Shown: positions 5,403 through 22,783 of the stretch, one piece after another
How the letters are laid out: each line of letters opens with the position of its first letter
Numbering within the stretch: the stretch's first letter is position 1
From: Candidatus Solibacter usitatus
GTDB lineage: Bacteria; Acidobacteriota; Terriglobia; Bryobacterales; Bryobacteraceae
NCBI GenBank assembly: GCA_016191645.1
Contig: JACPVQ010000134.1
Location: forward strand, 1-37,513
Reading direction: 5' to 3'
DNA: 37,513 bases
Made by a program: the position numbers and the translations under genes
The notes under the pieces: model-generated
What the model was told of the DNA's origin: nothing
Databases searched by the model: none
What the model saw: the letters and a program-made list of their open reading frames with translations, nothing else

Positions 5403-7773
5403 TAGATTGCCGCGCATCGATTCTCCGTTCCCGTCGAAACCTATCAGTTGGCCGCAGATCTACCTCGGAGTCGCACTGACGACTCTCGCCACGCTCATTC
5501 TTGAGCTGTCCCTCACCCGCATCTTCTCCGTCGTCTTCCACTACCATTTCGCCTTTCTCGCCATTTCCATCGCCCTCTTTGGATTGGGCGCTGGCGGAGT
5601 GCTTAGTTATTGGCTCAAGTCCAAAAGCAGTAAACTTTTCTCCCGTATCGGAATCCTATCGACCGTCAACGCCATCCTCGTTCCGGGGTCATTGCTGTTT
5701 CTCCTGACGCGAGATTCCGAATTCGACACCTTGTTGCTTGCCATTGTTTACTTCACGTCCGCCATCCCCTTCATCGCCTCCGGAGCTGTCGTCGCGACGG
5801 TGATCGCGGAAACCATCGAACGCGTGGACCGCGTCTACTTTTTCGATCTGCTTGGCGCGGCTGGTGGATGCCTTCTTCTTGTCCCGTTTCTGAATTACCT
5901 CGGCGGACCCAACGCCGTTATCGCGACGGGAGTACTCTATGCGGTTGCCGGCGCAATCTGGTTCCACGTCGAAGGACGAATTCAAGGCCGCGCCGCTGCC
6001 GTCCTTATCGCGCTCGCCTTGACCGCGTTAGTTGTATTGAACATTAAGAAGCCCGTAGTCGAAGTTCAGTTCGCAAAGGGCCAGCGTCTGCCCGCCGAAG
6101 CATTCACGAAGTGGAATCTCTTTTCCCGCATTGGCGTTCAGGACGACAAAAACCTGATCGTGATCGACGCCGATGCTTCCACCGGAATTCCCACGATGGA
6201 TCTCGATCACATGCAGCCGGCAGATCGCAAAAACCTCATGACGGAAGGTCCTTCACTTCCCTACTGGATCAAGCCAGGCGCGAAGACGCTCGTGATAGGG
6301 TCCGGCGGCGGCTACGACGTGGCGCGCGCCATCGCGTCGGGAAGCAAGGACGTGACCGCCGTTGAAATTAATCCCATCATTGCCAACACCGTGATGCGCG
6401 ACAAATTCGCGGGCAAGAGCCGGCGCATCTATTTCCGTCCCGAAGTGCGCGTCTTTGTCGAAGATGGCCGCAGCTTCGCGCGCCGCAGCGGTGAGAAGTA
6501 TCAGGTGATCCAGGCAACCTTGGTCGACACATGGGCATCCACGGCTGCCGGCGCATTCGCTCTCACCGAGAACAATCTTTATACATCCGAGGCATTCCAC
6601 GATTACCTGAGTCACCTCACCGACGATGGCATTCTTGCCTTCACCCGCTGGGGCTTCGAGCCGCCGCGCGAGTCTCTGCGCCTTCTCGCTTTGGCGCGGG
6701 AAGCGTTGCTGCAATTGGGCGAAAAGAATCCGGCGCTTCACGTAGTCATTGGCCGCGAAAGGGCGAACCTGTTACAGGGATGGGGAGCGACGGACACCGT
6801 CATCATTACTCGCAAGCCGATCACCGCCGCGCAAATTCCAACATTGAAGGCAGCCCTCGCCGACGCTGCTCTCACCGCCCTCTACTATCCTGGCATCCTG
6901 GATTCGACAGCCTTTTCTCAATATCTTTCCGCGCCCGATCCTGCAAGTTTCTATGCCGGCTATCGCTACAACGTGACCCCGGTCAGCGACGACCGGCCAT
7001 TCTTCTTTTTCACCGTCCAGCCCAGGGACGTACTTCAATTTTTCGGCACCGCCTACAGAGAGTCCGCCGATTACAAGATCAACAAAGCTGTTCCGCTTTT
7101 GTTCGGTTTAGTCGGTATCAGTATTCTGGCGATGGTCATCACTCTCGCCCTGCCGCCGCTTCTTTTGGGCACGCGCCTCCCGGCGGAAAAAGGGGTGCGG
7201 CGCTATCTGCTCTACTTCGCGGCGATCGGTACCGGCTACATTCTGGTTCAAGTGGCACTGATTCAGAAGTTCGTTCTCTTCCTTGGCCATCCCACTTACG
7301 CGCTCACTGTAATTATCTTCTCGATGCTGCTTTCGAGCGGAATCGGAAGCGGTTTGAGCGGCCGCTTCTTACGCAACACAACGAAGTCCTGGATGAGAAC
7401 GCTGGCTATTATCGCGGCGCTCGTGGCTGTCTTGGCGCTTGTTGCCGGCCCGATCACACGCATGGGAGTCGGCTTGCCGCTATGGGTGAAGATGTCCATT
7501 GCGATTGTGATGATTGCTCCAGCCGGCTTCTTTATGGGAATGCCCTTCCCCGCGGGTTTGGCGTACCTGGAACGTCGTCACTCGCCCTCGGTGCGCTGGG
7601 CCTGGTCTCTCAACGCCGCTTCCAGCGTTACAGGATCAGCCTTCGCCATGGTGCTGGCGCTTTACTTGGGCTTACAGGCAACGCTGCTGATCGGAGGCCT
7701 GTGCTACCTTCTGGCATTATTCGTGATTCGGCTTGAGCAGCCCACACTTGCGTCCGGCGGCCCAGCGCAATAG
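5380..7773 (+). CDS. Membrane-integrated spermidine-synthase-like (SAM-binding) protein
   Basis: This 797-residue protein has three parts. An N-terminal block of about six or seven hydrophobic helices (roughly 28-225) is followed by a soluble Rossmann domain, whose glycine motif LVIGSGGGYDVARAI (about 303-317) and VTAVEIN resemble spermidine synthase. A C-terminal block of about seven helices (roughly 570-785) ends the protein. Such fusions are often annotated as spermine/spermidine synthase family, but the hydrophobic domains suggest a different membrane-linked role. I do not claim polyamine synthesis. The start is GTG 5380, overlapping the glycosyltransferase by 23 bases; TTG 5407 is possible. 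It is the fourth gene of a close-packed plus-strand run. Confidence 0.8.
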   Translation: MHSLAYHSRLPRIDSPFPSKPISWPQIYLGVALTTLATLILELSLTRIFSVVFHYHFAFLAISIALFGLGAGGVLSYWLKSKSSKLFSRIGILSTVNAILVPGSLLFLLTRDSEFDTLLLAIVYFTSAIPFIASGAVVATVIAETIERVDRVYFFDLLGAAGGCLLLVPFLNYLGGPNAVIATGVLYAVAGAIWFHVEGRIQGRAAAVLIALALTALVVLNIKKPVVEVQFAKGQRLPAEAFTKWNLFSRIGVQDDKNLIVIDADASTGIPTMDLDHMQPADRKNLMTEGPSLPYWIKPGAKTLVIGSGGGYDVARAIASGSKDVTAVEINPIIANTVMRDKFAGKSRRIYFRPEVRVFVEDGRSFARRSGEKYQVIQATLVDTWASTAAGAFALTENNLYTSEAFHDYLSHLTDDGILAFTRWGFEPPRESLRLLALAREALLQLGEKNPALHVVIGRERANLLQGWGATDTVIITRKPITAAQIPTLKAALADAALTALYYPGILDSTAFSQYLSAPDPASFYAGYRYNVTPVSDDRPFFFFTVQPRDVLQFFGTAYRESADYKINKAVPLLFGLVGISILAMVITLALPPLLLGTRLPAEKGVRRYLLYFAAIGTGYILVQVALIQKFVLFLGHPTYALTVIIFSMLLSSGIGSGLSGRFLRNTTKSWMRTLAIIAALVAVLALVAGPITRMGVGLPLWVKMSIAIVMIAPAGFFMGMPFPAGLAYLERRHSPSVRWAWSLNAASSVTGSAFAMVLALYLGLQATLLIGGLCYLLALFVIRLEQPTLASGGPAQ

Positions 7774-16476: not shown

Positions 16477-17286
16477 TCAGTGTCGCAAAACGAACTTCGA
16501 AATGTACGGGTCCGTGGAAAGCCCCAGTTCTTCCCGCGTTCCTTCGAACACAAGTTTGCCTTCACGCATCACCATAAACTTGAGCCCGCTGACGCTGCCG
16601 CCGTCGCTGGATGCCGCGCGCAGTTCGCCGCTGTCGCGGTCAAATCGATACTTCGCCATGATCTGGCCGTCCTGAAAACGCTGCGTCACAATCACGGTGG
16701 TGGCGTTTCGCAAGTCCCTTTCCTTCACCAGCAAAGCCATGATGTTGTTTGCCGTAATCGGATCAAGGCCGGCGGTTGGGGAATCGTAGAGAACCAAGGC
16801 CGGCTCCGTTACGTTCGCCCGGGCGATGCCCACCCTGCGCCGCATTCCACCGGAAAGTTCGCTCGGAAATTTTTCCAGCGTGTGCCCCAACTCGACGAAT
16901 GTCAACGCTTCTTCGACGCGCTGGTGTGTTTGCTCCTCATCCAACTGAATCGATTTCTGATTCACTAACGGGTACGAAACGTTTTCCTCAATGGTCAGCG
17001 AGTCGAACAAAGCACTCTCCTGAAACAGCATGCCCACGCGGGCGCGAATGGAAAACATCTCCTGCTCCCTGCGGCCCGTAATATCTTCGTTGAACAGAAA
17101 CACGCGTCCCTTCGAAGGGTGGAGCAACCCGATGGCGGTTTTCAGAATCACGGTTTTGCCGCTTCCGGATTCGCCCAGAACCACGCGGCTTTCGCCGTTC
17201 CTGATGTCGAAGGAAACGTCGTCCAGCGCCGGTTGACCGCCGAAGTCCACCGTGACACGTTCAAACCGCATTACGGAATCCGCCAT
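16477..17286 (-). CDS. mlaF: MlaF-type ABC ATPase of the MCE lipid transporter
   Basis: This 269-residue protein energises the Mla-type phospholipid transporter. Walker A is GESGSGKT (about 38-45), Q-loop FQESALFDSLTIEENV, signature LSGGMRRRVGIARA and Walker B LVLYDSPTAGLDP. The Walker B acidic residue plus Ser (YDSPTAGLD) replaces the common DEP; this is seen in some MlaF proteins (YDEPFTGLD in E. coli), so the change of E to S at the catalytic-base position is worth noting. It starts three bases after the mlaE stop. A MlaB-like STAS partner is not encoded here. Confidence 0.9.
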   Translation of the reverse strand: MADSVMRFERVTVDFGGQPALDDVSFDIRNGESRVVLGESGSGKTVILKTAIGLLHPSKGRVFLFNEDITGRREQEMFSIRARVGMLFQESALFDSLTIEENVSYPLVNQKSIQLDEEQTHQRVEEALTFVELGHTLEKFPSELSGGMRRRVGIARANVTEPALVLYDSPTAGLDPITANNIMALLVKERDLRNATTVIVTQRFQDGQIMAKYRFDRDSGELRAASSDGGSVSGLKFMVMREGKLVFEGTREELGLSTDPYISKFVLRH

Positions 17287-17289
17287 GGC

Positions 17290-18045
17290 TCAGAGGGTCA
17301 CGAAGATCTGCGTGATGAAAGCGTTGAGAACAAAAATCCACACCGACGACACAACCACGGCTTGCGTGGTGGCAAGTCCGACGCCTTGCGTTCCACCCGT
17401 TGTGCGCAATCCGCAAAAGCACCCCACCATCGAGATGACCATCGCATAGATGAACGGTTTGATGAGCCCCTGCGCGATATCGTTGTACTCGATAGCGCGG
17501 TAGGCCCCGTTCCAATACTCGGACGTTGTCAATTTGAGGACGCCATACGCAATGAGATATCCGCCAAGCAATCCGACGAAATCGGCGATTGCGGTAAGGC
17601 ACGGCAGCATGATCGCTGTCGCAATGAGGCGCGGCTTGACAAGCTTCTGTACAGGGTCGGTTCCCAGAGCGCGCATCGCATCGATCTGCTCCGTTACTTT
17701 CATCGAACCCAATTCACTGGCGATCCCGGCGGCATTGCGGCCCGCCACCACAATCGACGTAAGCACAGGACCCATTTCGCGAACCAGCGTGATGGCGACG
17801 ATGGGTCCGGTCTGACTGACGGCACCATAGGTACGAAGAGCGCGCGACATTTGCAGAGCCATCACGACGCCGCTGAAGAATCCCACCAGCAGGACAATCG
17901 GCAAACTGCCCACGCCAAGAATGTCCATCTGATTCAGAATGTCCCTGGGATAGTGCGGGCGTTTGGGAAGATTCTTCAGCGTACGGCCCGTGAGCTGGAA
18001 AAATTCCTGGATGGAGAGGACCGGGCCTTTAAGAATGTCCAGCAA
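17290..18045 (-). CDS. mlaE: MlaE-type permease of the MCE lipid transporter
   Basis: I place the start at TTG 18045, preceded by AAGG, giving 251 residues, the usual MlaE length. The frame stays open far upstream, but that part lies antisense to the P1 peptidase gene and is not credible. The protein has an interfacial N-terminal helix (ILKGPVLSIQEFFQLTGRTL), about five membrane segments and the permease hallmark LVREMGPVLTSIVVAGRNAAGIASELGSM. It then has EQIDAMRALGTDPVQKLVKPR. It forms the inner-membrane channel with MlaF and MlaD encoded downstream. The gap to the divergent P1 peptidase is only 51 bp and must hold both start regions. Confidence 0.87.
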   Translation of the reverse strand: MLDILKGPVLSIQEFFQLTGRTLKNLPKRPHYPRDILNQMDILGVGSLPIVLLVGFFSGVVMALQMSRALRTYGAVSQTGPIVAITLVREMGPVLTSIVVAGRNAAGIASELGSMKVTEQIDAMRALGTDPVQKLVKPRLIATAIMLPCLTAIADFVGLLGGYLIAYGVLKLTTSEYWNGAYRAIEYNDIAQGLIKPFIYAMVISMVGCFCGLRTTGGTQGVGLATTQAVVVSSVWIFVLNAFITQIFVTL

Positions 18046-18096
18046 ATCCGGTGTACCTTGAAACTTGATGCTACCATACCGTTTCCCGAAGACAAC

Positions 18097-19083
18097 ATGA
18101 GCAAGGGATTGACCGATATCGACGGGATTCTGGTGGGCCACGCCTCGGACTTCGAAGGCCTCACCGGCTGTACGGCGATTCTCTGCCCGCGCGGCGCGAC
18201 CGCGGGCGTTGATGTTCGAGGATCTGCCGCGGGAGCCGCGGAACTCGAGGTCATGAATCCGCTGCATGTCGCGAGCCACGTCCACGGAGTTGTGTTGGCC
18301 GGAGGCAGCGCCTTTGGTCTGGAGGCAGCCAGCGGCGTGCGCCGGTTTCTGGAGAAAAAGGACATAGGATTTCCCACCGGAGTGGCGAAGGTGCCGATAG
18401 TTCCCTGCGCGATCCTGTTCGACCTTGCCATCGGCAGTGCTGCCGCCAGACCGACGCGCGAGATGGGCGAGGCGGCCGCCGCGGCAGCATCGGACGGCCC
18501 GGTGAAAGAAGGCGCTGTCGGCGCGGGGACAGGTCTCACGGTCGGTAAATTGCTTGGCATGGGAAACGCGATGAAATCGGGAATCGGTTCTGCTACCGTT
18601 TGGCTGGATGGAGAACTGGCGGGCGTTCGCGTGGCCGCGCTCGCCGCGGTGAATGCCATGGGCGACGTTCGCGATGCCGAAACGGGACGTCTGGTTGCGG
18701 GCACTCGCGAGACTCCTGAGAGTCTGGATCTGGCGGACTCTTCGGCCATTCTCAAATCGCGAAGCAAGGCAAGCGGATTTGAGGCGTTCAACACGACGCT
18801 CGTCGTGGTGGCGACCAACGCAAAGCTTTCGAAAGTAGGCGCGACGAAATTGGCTCAACTGGCAAGCCTAGGCGTTGCAAGATCCATTCAGCCCGTGTGG
18901 ACCATGTCCGACGGCGACGTCACCTTCGCCCTCTCCGTGGGTAACGAATCCGCGCCCGTCGATGCCCTGGGAGTGGCCGCCGCGGAGGCTGTTTCCGCCG
19001 CCATTCTGCGCGCCGTCCGCCTTGCCCCGACTATGGGCGGCGTTCCAGGTTTGCTATCCTCGGAAAGTATACGATTACGTTAA
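18097..19083 (+). CDS. P1-family (DmpA/S58-like) self-processing peptidase
   Basis: This 328-residue protein starts at ATG 18097 (MSKGLTDIDGILVGHA). It matches the P1/DmpA family of N-terminal-nucleophile aminopeptidases: VGHASDFEGLTGCTAIL, GVDVRGSAAG, VLAGGSAFGLEAASGV, GAVGAGTG, and the cleavage-nucleophile region FNTTLVVVATNA. There a bond before Thr is expected to be cut to give two chains. The tail after EAVSAAILRAV is short. The gene is divergent from mlaE. yggX begins 17 bases after the stop, behind its own ribosome-binding site. Natural substrates are unknown; relatives hydrolyse N-terminal residues of peptides or beta-peptides. Confidence 0.87.
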   Translation: MSKGLTDIDGILVGHASDFEGLTGCTAILCPRGATAGVDVRGSAAGAAELEVMNPLHVASHVHGVVLAGGSAFGLEAASGVRRFLEKKDIGFPTGVAKVPIVPCAILFDLAIGSAAARPTREMGEAAAAAASDGPVKEGAVGAGTGLTVGKLLGMGNAMKSGIGSATVWLDGELAGVRVAALAAVNAMGDVRDAETGRLVAGTRETPESLDLADSSAILKSRSKASGFEAFNTTLVVVATNAKLSKVGATKLAQLASLGVARSIQPVWTMSDGDVTFALSVGNESAPVDALGVAAAEAVSAAILRAVRLAPTMGGVPGLLSSESIRLR

Positions 19084-19100: not shown

Positions 19101-19445
19101 ATGGCGTGTGGAAGTGGTGGTTGCGGAAGCGGAGTTGCCGCGCCTGTACAAGTTGAGAATCCAAACGCTCGCAAAGTATTCTGCGTGAAGTTCCAGAAGG
19201 ATATGACCGGCTTGGACGAGGTGCCCTTTGAAGGCCATCCGCTGGGCCAGCGAATTTACGAAAACGTATCCAAGGAAGCCTGGAAGATGTGGGTGGAGCA
19301 CATGAAAATGCTCATGAACGAATACCGCCTCAACCTTGGCACCGCGGAAGCGCAGGAGTTCCTCATCAAACAGATGGAACAGTATTTCTTCGGCGAAGGG
19401 GCCGCCCTGCCCGCCGGATATGTGCCTCCGCAGAGCAAATCATAA
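19101..19445 (+). CDS. yggX: YggX-type oxidative damage protection / Fe(II)-trafficking protein with Cys-Gly-rich N-terminal extension
   Basis: A strong ribosome-binding site (TAAGGAGAT, 19086-19094) precedes ATG 19101. Residues from about 25 match YggX closely: VFCVKFQKDMTGLDEVPFEGHPLGQRIYENVS... then KQMEQYFFG. The family protects iron-sulfur clusters and DNA from oxidative damage. The conserved Cys of YggX is present in FCVKF. This copy carries an additional N terminus, MACGSGGCGSG plus about 13 residues, not present in typical 90-residue YggX, and a C-terminal proline-containing tail. The stop overlaps the convergent ATP-grasp gene by six bases. Confidence 0.92.
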   Translation: MACGSGGCGSGVAAPVQVENPNARKVFCVKFQKDMTGLDEVPFEGHPLGQRIYENVSKEAWKMWVEHMKMLMNEYRLNLGTAEAQEFLIKQMEQYFFGEGAALPAGYVPPQSKS

Positions 19446-20669
19446 TAGAGCGGTCGCGATATCGAAGGTGAGCTTTTGGTGCGCTGCGCGAAGATCGCGC
19501 ACCACGAATTCCGGAGTCGTTGCCCTTGCGAAAATGAACCCAAGATAGCTGTTCGCCTCCGGAAACATTCTCACTCTCTGGCCAGGGACGGCGGTGATGA
19601 TCACGTCATCGACTTCCTCGTGCCCAGTGACGCCTTTATAAATACCATCCTTCGGAATGGGGATCATCATCACACCGGACGCGCCCGGTTCCGGATTCAG
19701 CCCGCTAAGATCCTGCCCGAGCGCGTGGCGTAGAAGAAACTCTTCCAGCGACATGCCGCCCTGGAATCGCAACGCCTTCGCGCAATAACCGCCGATAGAC
19801 CTCGGGGCGATCTCCAACAGCCACACGCCTTCTTCGTTCACACGCATTTCGGCGTGGATTGGGCCTTGGGACAATCCCAAGGCAGCGACGCCTCGCCGCG
19901 CGGCTGTGCAGATTGCGTCTTGTGTGGCGGCGTCCGCGCGCGAAGGCGTGACGTAGATGGTTTCTTCGAAAAAAGGCCCTTCGAGCGGATCGGGTTTGTC
20001 GAACAATGCAATGACTCGCAGTACGCCGCCCGTCACCGCTCCTTCCAGAGCGAACTCCTTACCCGGAATGTACGATTCCACTTGAATGAAGCTGAGCCGC
20101 GGATCGGCGCGATGCGTGAGCGTAGGGTCGGAAAGCAGCTTGCGAATGCGCTGGAAGGCGGCGTCGAATTCCTGCTGATTGTTCGCGCGCACCACACCTT
20201 GACTACCCGAGAGCCCGATGGGTTTGAGCACACACGGGAAGTTCACACTCGGCGGCGCATCACCAACCGAATGCCTTGTGTATTCAGGAACCAGCAGGCC
20301 CGCCGCTTGAAACCGCTGCTTCGTAAGGAATTTGTTGATGGATGCTTCCACCGCGTGTGGCGGATGAAACGGAATCCCCAGGCGTTCGGCGGTGAGCGCA
20401 GCGAGAAAGGTCGTGCGATCGCCAAGGGCCATCACTCCGGTGAACTTCGCATTCGCCGCAAGCTGTGCCGCCGACGCAGCCGGGTCGTCGTACTTAACGG
20501 GAATCGCACCATCGGCCCACGGGTCATCCATCTGATCGCAGCGGTCCGTCGCCAGCGTGTATCGAACGCCAAGCTGCCGCGCCGCCTCGGCGAACATGCG
20601 CAGTTGATAGCCGGTGGTGGTGGAGAAAAGAAGCAGATGGCCGGCGGTCACTGCCTCAGAAGATTTCAT
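19440..20669 (-). CDS. ATP-grasp domain ligase, partner of the radical SAM selenoprotein
   Basis: This 409-residue protein starts at ATG 20669, which overlaps the true stop of the upstream radical SAM gene as ATGA, so the two are translationally coupled. An N-terminal Rossmann-like region (about 1-105) precedes an ATP-grasp fold. The features seen are FPCVLKPIGLSGSQGVVRANN (ATP-binding lysine and flexible loop), VESYIPGKEFALEGAV, and IHAEMRVNEEGVWLLEIAPRSIGG (metal-binding Glu/Asn-region). The layout resembles carboxylate-amine ligases such as L-amino-acid ligases and BacD-like enzymes. It probably forms an amide bond to a product made or modified by the radical SAM enzyme; that is inference. 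It is convergent with yggX. Confidence 0.85.
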   Translation of the reverse strand: MKSSEAVTAGHLLLFSTTTGYQLRMFAEAARQLGVRYTLATDRCDQMDDPWADGAIPVKYDDPAASAAQLAANAKFTGVMALGDRTTFLAALTAERLGIPFHPPHAVEASINKFLTKQRFQAAGLLVPEYTRHSVGDAPPSVNFPCVLKPIGLSGSQGVVRANNQQEFDAAFQRIRKLLSDPTLTHRADPRLSFIQVESYIPGKEFALEGAVTGGVLRVIALFDKPDPLEGPFFEETIYVTPSRADAATQDAICTAARRGVAALGLSQGPIHAEMRVNEEGVWLLEIAPRSIGGYCAKALRFQGGMSLEEFLLRHALGQDLSGLNPEPGASGVMMIPIPKDGIYKGVTGHEEVDDVIITAVPGQRVRMFPEANSYLGFIFARATTPEFVVRDLRAAHQKLTFDIATALL

Positions 20670-22018
20670 ACAAGAGCAACCTGCTCTTCAGTGGGTTCCG
20701 CTCAACAATACCAGGGTTCATCCATGTAAGGAATGGCCGCGCGGGGGAGCAGGTCGAAATTCTCCGGGGCGCGTTCATTCACCAATTCCCAGATGCTTCT
20801 GAAGATCTCGCGGCGCGTGCGGTTTTCCTTTTGCTCCCGTGAAACCAGCCTCAATACGCTAGCCGCCAGTTCGTCCATTGCGGGGTCCCGATGCGACCAA
20901 CGGTGCAAAAGCGCCGCACGGTCGAAATGGGTGATGGCCTCACGAATGTCATCCAATTCCAGCAGCCGCGAATCGGGCGGGATCAGCAAGCGGAGCGCCA
21001 GTTGGATGGGTGCAACGTGGTCCACCAAATCGCATTCAACTATGACGCGCAACAACTCGCGATATCCCGCCGGCGTTGTCCACGGAGTGAACGGTACAAA
21101 TGTCGGAAGAAGAGGAAGCGATGCGTCACGGCAAAGCCGAAAGGCGGTGAAGAAGTGATCGCGAGTGTGGCCTTTGTCCAGCTTCTCCAAAATATCGTTG
21201 TCAATGGATTCGACGGCGCTGGTCAAAAACGCGCAGCCAGTCGCACGCAAATCGCGAAGATACTCACGATGCTGCAGGATGTGCTCAATCTTGATGGTTA
21301 CGTCGTAGGTGACGCCGGGGAACTCATGCGCCATCCCTCGAACGATCCGCATCGCATGAGCGGGGCCGTTGAAAAAATCGGGATCGCCGAAGGTAATGTG
21401 CCGCGCGCCGGCGGCCACTTGAGCGTGAATGTCGCTGAGCACAACATCCTGCTGCACCACGCGAAACGCTCCTTGATAAACAGGAACAATGGGACAGTGA
21501 CGGCAGAGATGCTTGCAGCCGCGGCTCGCTTCGGTATAACCGGCCAACCGTGCTTCCCCGTCGATGCGAAGTTTCGAATACCGCTCAAGGCCCGGGAGTT
21601 GAGCGCGCTCGGGCGTAAGAAAGGTCAACCGTTCCATCGAAACGATCTGAGCCGGCGCGCATCCCTCAACGGCATCGCAGAGGGAGCGTTCGTACTCTCC
21701 GCTCAGAACGGTTCCAACACCCAAATCCCGCAGATATTCCGCGTTCGGGGATGCGTACAAGCCGTACGCAATCAGCTTCGCCTTCGCATTGAGAGATCGC
21801 GTCTTTGAAATAACGTTGGAAGCCAATCGCGCCGCCGTGTGCATGGGCAAATAGAAGCACACGACATCGGCGTCGCGAATAGCACCCGCGGGCATATCCT
21901 GCACGGCGAGGTCGGCGAGCGTAACTTCGTGGCCACGCGCACCAAGCCACGCCGCCGGGGACGCCAGCCCGAAAGGCTGATGCCCCAGATCATACGTGGA
22001 AAGGAGAACTACGTTCAC
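20666..22018 (-). CDS. Radical SAM selenoprotein with CUAEP tail (in-frame TGA read as selenocysteine)
   Basis: GTG 22018 starts four bases after the peroxiredoxin stop. The radical SAM cluster is C168-KHL-C172-RH-C175. Residues 1-130 look like a B12-binding-type Rossmann domain without the DxHxxG base-off motif. The frame reaches TGA at 20704-20702 right after PYMDEPWYC. Beyond it the frame continues Ala-Glu-Pro-Thr-Glu-Glu-Gln-Val-Ala-Leu-Val, then TGA at 20668-20666, which overlaps the next gene's ATG as ATGA. CUAEP/CCAEP is, to my knowledge, the signature tail of a known radical SAM family, in which U is selenocysteine. A SECIS-like hairpin follows the TGA. The full product is 450 residues. 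If not recoded, the product would be 438 residues and lack the tail. The reaction is unknown. Confidence 0.87.
20672..20688 (-). promoter_or_regulatory. SECIS-like hairpin after the selenocysteine codon
   Basis: The minus-strand RNA reads AAGAGCA-GGU-UGCUCUU, a perfect 6-7 bp stem with a GGU (or AGGUU) tip. Twenty nucleotides separate the UGA from the GGU. E. coli fdhF has a comparable stem with a GGU tip 18 nt after its UGA, which SelB recognises. The hairpin lies inside the coding extension, as bacterial SECIS elements do. Confidence 0.75.
20702..20704 (-). other. Selenocysteine codon (TGA) at residue 439
   Basis: The minus-strand codons around it read TGG TAT TGT TGA GCG GAA CCC, i.e. W-Y-C-U-A-E-P. 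The downstream extension is short, in frame, acidic and ends exactly on the start of the next gene, as expected if it is translated. Confidence 0.85.
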
Positions 22019-22022
22019 TCGG

Positions 22023-22679
22023 TTACGGCTTCGGAAGTTCCTTCATGGAAAGGTAGAAGTCCTTCACCTCGTATTCCTTGTGGCTCAATCTTTCCTTGAT
22101 GTCGTCCACCGTCTTCGGAGGAGGAACAACAACTTTGTCTCCGGGCCTCCAGTTTGCCGGAGTGGCGCAGGACTGGGAGTCGGCGGTTTGCAAAGCCTGC
22201 ACCAGACGCATGATTTCATCAATGTTGCGCCCGGCGTTCATCGGATAGTAGACCAACGCGCGAACAATGCGCTTCGGGTCGATGATAAAAACCGCGCGCA
22301 CGGTTGCGGTCGCGCTGGCCCCGGGATGAATCATTCCGTAGGCTTGTGAAACCTTCATGTCGATGTCGGCAATGAGAGGGTACGGAATCTCGACACCCAT
22401 CTTCTCCTTCATGTTTTGAAGCCATGCCAGGTGCGAATGGATGCTGTCCACGCTGATGCCGATCAGTTTCGTCTTTTGCGCACGGAACTCTTCAGAACGG
22501 CGCGCAAAATCGGTCAATTCCGTTGTACAAACGGGCGTAAAATCGGCCGGGTGAGAAAAGAGCACCACCCAGTCCTCTCCTTGCCAGTCGCTGAATTTCA
22601 TCGCAGCGGCTTGCGTGGTAATAGCCGTAAAATCCGGGGCTGGATCGCCAATTTTGGGCAAACTAATGGTGTCTGACAT
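22023..22679 (-). CDS. Peroxiredoxin, 1-Cys Prx6-like
   Basis: I chose ATG 22679 (MSDTISLPKIGDPAPDF), with GGAG ten bases upstream, giving 218 residues; the frame is open for 23 more codons but without a better start. The peroxidatic Cys is in HPADFTPVCTTEL, and the Arg/Thr partners are present. The C-terminal arm (NWRPGDKVVVPPP ... KEYEVKDFYLSMKELPKP) is typical of the Prx6/AhpC-TSA 1-Cys group. It reduces hydrogen peroxide and alkyl hydroperoxides in the cytoplasm. It is the first gene of the peroxiredoxin-selenoprotein-ATP-grasp operon, with four bases to the next GTG. Confidence 0.92.
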   Translation of the reverse strand: MSDTISLPKIGDPAPDFTAITTQAAAMKFSDWQGEDWVVLFSHPADFTPVCTTELTDFARRSEEFRAQKTKLIGISVDSIHSHLAWLQNMKEKMGVEIPYPLIADIDMKVSQAYGMIHPGASATATVRAVFIIDPKRIVRALVYYPMNAGRNIDEIMRLVQALQTADSQSCATPANWRPGDKVVVPPPKTVDDIKERLSHKEYEVKDFYLSMKELPKP

Positions 22680-22783
22680 TGCGGGATATCTCCGTGTTCG
22701 AATGCTAACACAGGATGGAACCGGGCCGATAGCGAAAGCGTCCATCAATACCGGATGCTATATTGAACTCTTGGAGGGGATTT

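Follow-up and report, generated by a model that had tools for sequence, protein, structure and literature searches.

An in-frame TGA very probably encodes selenocysteine in a CUAEP-tail radical SAM enzyme of an acidobacterial genome

An in-frame TGA codon on the minus strand of a stretch of acidobacterial DNA very probably encodes selenocysteine (Sec, U) in a radical S-adenosylmethionine (SAM) enzyme of the family NF040546, which is listed in NCBIfam as "CUAEP/CCAEP-tail radical SAM (seleno)protein"; both the reading of the codon and the family assignment are based on sequence comparison. The stretch, referred to as the window, comprises 37,513 nucleotides of Candidatus Solibacter usitatus (GTDB lineage Bacteria; Acidobacteriota; Terriglobia; Bryobacterales; Bryobacteraceae), i.e., positions 1 to 37,513 of the forward strand of contig JACPVQ010000134.1 in assembly GCA_016191645.1. 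The radical SAM frame starts with GTG at 22018 and, when translated with table 11, ends at TGA 20704-20702 to give a product of 438 amino acids. Upon read-through of this codon the protein continues as ...DEPWYC-U-AEPTEEQVALV, i.e., with 11 residues after the U, up to a second TGA at 20668-20666, which yields a total of 450 residues and shares bases with the start codon of the following gene (ATG, 20669-20667) as ATGA. The first-pass annotation of the window, which had proposed Sec in a CUAEP tail, a standard call stopping at 20702, an extension of 11 residues to 450 and the ATGA overlap, had the coordinates and the count right. Standard gene calling drops the last 12 residues and loses the conserved Cys-Sec pair. 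The main features of the gene are the following:

20666-22018, minus strand: radical SAM gene, putative selenoprotein of 450 residues with Sec at position 439
20702-20704, minus strand: in-frame TGA (codon 439), read as Sec in C-U-A-E-P
20672-20688, minus strand: candidate bacterial selenocysteine insertion sequence (SECIS) hairpin, AAGAGCA-GGT-TGCTCTT
21494-21517, minus strand: CX3CX2C motif (C168, C172 and C175) for the radical SAM [4Fe-4S] cluster

The window protein scores 607.8 bits against NF040546 (cut-off 500) with its tail and 585.8 bits without it, i.e., the tail contributes 22 bits, and it carries the remaining hallmarks of the family, which are a C[UC]AEP tail (here C-TGA-AEP), the CX3CX2C motif and a Radical_SAM domain (PF04055 in Pfam, 45 bits, cut-off 29.5). 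The family to which the first-pass annotation had referred therefore exists, and because the match lies above the cut-off, the gene is a new member of a kind for which a public model library already has a name; no feature was found that distinguishes the protein from the other members in score, tail or cluster motif. The model name itself carries no function, and no assignment of a reaction to NF040546 was found. In the literature search, no paper contained CUAEP, RCCLKC or NF040546, none combined arsinothricin with ATP-grasp, no title named a CUAEP/CCAEP-tail family, and the matches to CCAEP were unrelated titles. In PMC13188914, a search for terms found no CUAEP, and the radical SAM rows shown by it name TIGR04167 and TrsS.

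The evidence for Sec comes mainly from relatives of the gene. These were collected by scanning genome contigs with a query ending before the TGA, such that the tail was left out of the search; 537 stretches were obtained and the 80 best were retained, and the counts therefore lean toward near kin. Within these 80, the critical codon is TGA in 61, TGC in 16 and TGT in three, and it is followed by AEP in every case. Homologues with Cys in place of U, for which the first-pass annotation had suggested to look, are thus present: the TGA aligns with a Cys codon in 19 of the 80, as expected for a bacterial selenoprotein. The converse pattern, in which homologues would stop at EPWYC and lack AEP, was seen in none. 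The alignment and fold took in 35 of the 81 sequences, and in all 35 rows the CX3CX2C motif is invariant, as is E-P-W-x-C-C(U)-A-E-P except at x. In a tree built without the tail, at least nine changes between Sec and Cys are required, seven of which are forced by supported branches, and the codon has therefore switched repeatedly. A further member is found on a Thermomicrobium roseum plasmid (L111, 4935-6371), where the coding sequence listed by PLSDB ends at TGA 6369-6371 while AEP continues in frame; as listed, this member is probably cut at its Sec codon. The hairpin of the T. roseum gene is strong (z -3.02 against synonymous resamples). As a separate observation on the tree, a locus from a record titled Bifidobacterium breve metagenome-assembled genome (MAG) (L096) groups with Luteitalea L105 (support 100), and one from a record titled Acidimicrobiia MAG (L075) groups with L076 (support 92); because both genes sit among acidobacterial ones, the record titles may reflect mistakes in binning or naming.

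The hairpin situated just downstream of the TGA was analyzed across an equal-length set of 49 TGA tails, composed of the window and 48 loci (48 distinct tails); 12 TGA relatives with tails of other lengths were omitted, as was L060, which has only 35 bases left and was dropped from the tail counts requiring 39. In this set, 97.9% of the cells of the six-pair stem are paired, and 11 stem cells have changed on both sides as compared to 1.5 in shuffles, which ignore kinship. When the stem is slid to other positions, pairing drops to 39-67%. Codon 6 after the TGA varies together with an Ala codon: GAG goes with GCT in 42 rows, GCG with GCG in five and GGG with GCC in one, the single exception being L030, where GAG goes with GCG. 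Since the Ala codon changes without altering the residue, the pairing accounts for its variation. In the nine Cys tails of equal length (10 Cys relatives whose tails differ in length were omitted), stem pairing is 51.9%.

Each tail was also compared with 200 synonymous resamples. The Sec tails (n = 62, i.e., the window, 60 loci and T. roseum) have a mean z of -2.01 and 31 of the 62 reach the 5% level, whereas the Cys tails (n = 19) have a mean z of +0.28 and only one reaches that level; for the short-tailed Cys members the 39-base stretch reads past their stop. For the difference in z, the Mann-Whitney p is 1.7e-8, where neither this test nor the resampling takes kinship into account. A folding free energy (dG) of -5 or lower is found in 61/61 Sec rows and in 4/19 Cys rows. 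When only independent pairs on supported branches are compared, hairpin and Sec go together as expected in about 4.7-4.8 of seven pairs and in the opposite direction in 0-0.1 (median p 0.0625). The link is consistent, but the independent events are few and the kinship-corrected support is limited. From these data, it appears that the hairpin is good evidence for a SECIS element by comparison across relatives, and only in that way.

Part of the selenium machinery was identified in the genome of the window (4.47 Mb, 267 contigs, 79% complete), i.e., selA (485.9 bits) and a tRNA-Sec with the anticodon TCA (78.3 bits). The first-pass annotation had proposed to search for selA, selB, selC and selD, and the search was borne out for these two components; in this 79%-complete assembly, the best match to selB reached 163 bits (cut-off 242) and lies in a 380-residue frame that we read as resembling elongation factor Tu, and that to selD reached 63 bits (cut-off 125). 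The simplest reason for the absence of selB is the incompleteness of the assembly. The same genome has 17 places matching AhpC-TSA, of which four have an internal TGA. Two of these were opened (L108 and L110); one has a TGA at the peroxidatic position (FTGGUTKE) and the other in UPYC, and these peroxiredoxin-like genes, with TGA at the position of an active-site Cys, are two further selenoprotein candidates. In a broader survey of the phylum, 61 of the 396 genomes searched, with that of the window counted, had a match to NF040546 over the cut-off. These genomes are divided into 46 with an inner TGA, 10 that are stop-free over the tail, classed as Cys by the lack of a stop and not by reading of the codon, and five with truncated matches, which were kept apart. 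A selB gene was found over the cut-off in 43/46 of the TGA genomes, 5/10 of the full-length stop-free and 5/5 of the truncated ones (Fisher p 0.0029 for the first two groups); the corresponding numbers for tRNA-Sec are 40/46, 5/10 and 5/5 (p 0.018). The TGA genomes that lack selB are that of the window, G110 and G287, where G110 is the only one without both selB and tRNA-Sec.

The standard interpretation would be that the TGA is a plain stop, such that the protein ends at EPWYC (438 amino acids) and the AEP downstream is an accident or a relic. Several of the above observations weigh against Sec and in this direction: the score without the tail is still above the family cut-off, selB and selD were not found in the window assembly, and the sampling of near kin, the neglect of kinship and the short Cys tails limit the comparison. 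In addition, the hairpin is weak when considered on a single sequence. For the window alone (45 nt), the minimum-energy fold (z -0.59) differs from the hairpin, which is seen only in the centroid; 14% of synonymous resamples of the window row are equally stable (z -1.45); and in an Rfam scan of the window, only a tRNA reached the gathering score and no SECIS family did so. A plain stop is nevertheless very unlikely in view of the AEP in 80/80 relatives, the sense Cys codon in 19 of these, the compensatory and synonymous changes in the hairpin and the other genes with TGA at Cys positions in the same genome.

The overlap of the two genes brings in the neighbors of the radical SAM gene:

19440-20669, minus strand: ATP-grasp ligase gene (ATP-grasp_4, LAL_C2), the start of which overlaps the radical SAM stop as ATGA
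22023-22748, minus strand: peroxiredoxin gene, the stop of which lies 4 bases before the radical SAM GTG

The C-terminal domain of the ATP-grasp enzyme encoded downstream is of the amino-acid-ligase type. By tblastn, 52 of the 80 relatives have a similar ATP-grasp protein in the fetched stretch (four of these matches, L077, L096, L080 and L029, are below 200 bits), and in 43 of the 80 it is encoded on the same strand and at most 600 bases downstream, where contig ends make these counts low estimates. An in-frame ATGA overlap occurs in only four of these 43 (L027, L035, L062 and L078), and it was rejected as a trait of the family. The first-pass annotation had presented the tail motif, the coupling and the hairpin as three independent lines of support: the tail holds, the coupling by ATGA is weak, and the hairpin is weak by itself and good by comparison.

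The same overlap has a bearing on the possibility of a dual product, where Sec would be inserted only when selenium is available, the Cys-ending form of 438 residues would also be functional, and the ATGA would couple translation of the ATP-grasp gene to selenium. SelB and release factors compete, and in the Sec form the stop codon shares bases with the following ATG, while termination at 20702 leaves that start about 30 bases downstream. This scheme is unlikely because use of the short form is without support here and the overlap is rare among relatives.

If Sec is inserted as proposed above, with the hairpin helping to decode TGA 20704-20702, the enzyme of 450 residues would end in a mobile C-U-AEP tail. 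A possible mechanism is cleavage of SAM by the radical SAM core, which is preceded by a B12-like N-terminal domain, and transfer of a SAM-derived moiety to a soft acceptor; as in ArsL, this moiety would be 3-amino-3-carboxypropyl. The vicinal thiol and selenol of the tail, which is flexible, would act in the active site, either by binding this acceptor or by delivering reducing equivalents. The ATP-grasp enzyme encoded by the overlapping gene would then ligate the product, which is probably an unusual amino acid. A cobalamin site was rejected because the B12-binding domain (PF02310) remains below the Pfam cut-off (27.7 as compared to 32.1), which is not a proof; the score is below the cut-off also in the one ArsL-type protein scanned.

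The suggestion of this particular reaction originates from the second-best NCBIfam match of the window protein, NF040542 (ArsL, arsinothricin biosynthesis; 247.5 bits over residues 4-388). In PMC8552651, and again in PMC12159101, ArsL is reported to move the 3-amino-3-carboxypropyl group from SAM to As(III). The two proteins have a homologous core and the same cluster motif: CX3CX2C is common to the window protein and two ArsL-type proteins, and 68 columns are invariant across eight rows that include these two. Because of this shared core, the same SAM cleavage as in ArsL is the likeliest single guess, and chemistry like that of ArsL, in which a mobile Cys-Sec tail would assist, is offered tentatively, as a minority possibility suggested by sequence likeness. 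ATP-grasp genes were also found within 5 kb in all four ArsL-type (RCCLKC) plasmid loci that were opened out of 16 (L112-L115), where they sit in stretches with arsenic or arsinothricin genes. If the link to ArsL is true, one small pathway would combine selenium with radical SAM chemistry and with the ligation of amino acids.

A number of findings point away from this chemistry. The window protein ends in CUAEP, without the RCCLKC tail, and its score is below the ArsL cut-off (450); no arsenic genes are found among the scanned neighbors in the window. The ATP-grasp proteins of the ArsL-type loci are only 22-24% identical to that of the window, and the likeness of the neighbors is therefore a lead and no proof. 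An adjacent ATP-grasp gene is found in 17/19 Cys members and only in 26/61 TGA members, and none is listed within 5 kb of the T. roseum gene, for which the PLSDB gene table is incomplete. The nearest fold is that of AprD4, a radical SAM 1,2-diol dehydratase (PDB 6fd2), which is not among the solved relatives matched by sequence, none of which is better than E 0.069. AprD4 is not known to have a Cys-Sec tail.

The enzyme may instead be a selenoprotein with some other radical SAM chemistry, such as dehydration, epimerization or methyl transfer (as for its fold neighbors AprD4, MgmA and TsrM), in which the Cys-Sec pair serves as a redox relay; the chances of this are not far short of even, and such mechanisms, when pooled, are at least as likely as ArsL-like chemistry. 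A common fold shows no function, and the sequence is far nearer to ArsL than to the next family, TIGR04295 (37.5 bits, the third NCBIfam match). Vicinal pairs at a C-terminus are known elsewhere: mammalian thioredoxin reductase ends in Gly-Cys-Sec-Gly and MerA has a C-terminal Cys-Cys. Here, the comparison concerns only the idea of how a Cys-Sec or Cys-Cys pair on a mobile C-terminal tail may work; these proteins are unrelated flavoproteins and homology is not claimed.

A bolder form of the ArsL-like proposal is that the CUAEP enzymes would constitute a selenium-using sister group of ArsL, where the vicinal thiol-selenol of a swinging tail would capture a soft element (e.g., arsenite or another metalloid) and hand it to the SAM-derived 3-amino-3-carboxypropyl radical, after which the neighboring ATP-grasp ligase would make a peptide from the amino acid so formed. 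This is a long shot; if true, natural products that contain such elements would form an unrecognized class in Acidobacteriota and in a few further phyla.

Beyond the ATP-grasp gene, the surroundings vary. Of the relatives, L027, L028 and L100, which are near kin, are the only ones with a peroxiredoxin gene adjacent upstream; a fourth match among the 80 loci, in L087, is distant and on the opposite strand. In three Methylomirabilota loci (L069, L085 and L099), the ATP-grasp gene is found about 2 kb upstream with one gene between, which in L069, the one scanned, encodes an NfuA/IscA-like Fe-S carrier. A conserved operon extending beyond ATP-grasp was rejected: an MlaF-like ATPase is present in 3/80 relatives, MlaE, MlaD and the S58 peptidase in 0/80 and a copper-monooxygenase-like open reading frame in 1/80.

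Two further observations concern the plus strand of the window. At 19101-19445, a YggX/Iron_traffic gene (PF04362, 119 bits) with a Cys-Gly-rich N-terminal addition converges on the ATP-grasp gene; the corresponding protein cluster is found in 20/80 relatives, and in 17/21 cases (window included) it is located downstream on the opposite strand. At 17119-19083 (plus) and 17290-18858 (minus), two long frames overlap on opposite strands, with an S58 peptidase domain on the plus frame and an MlaE permease on the minus frame, where the matched domains do not overlap by residue range.
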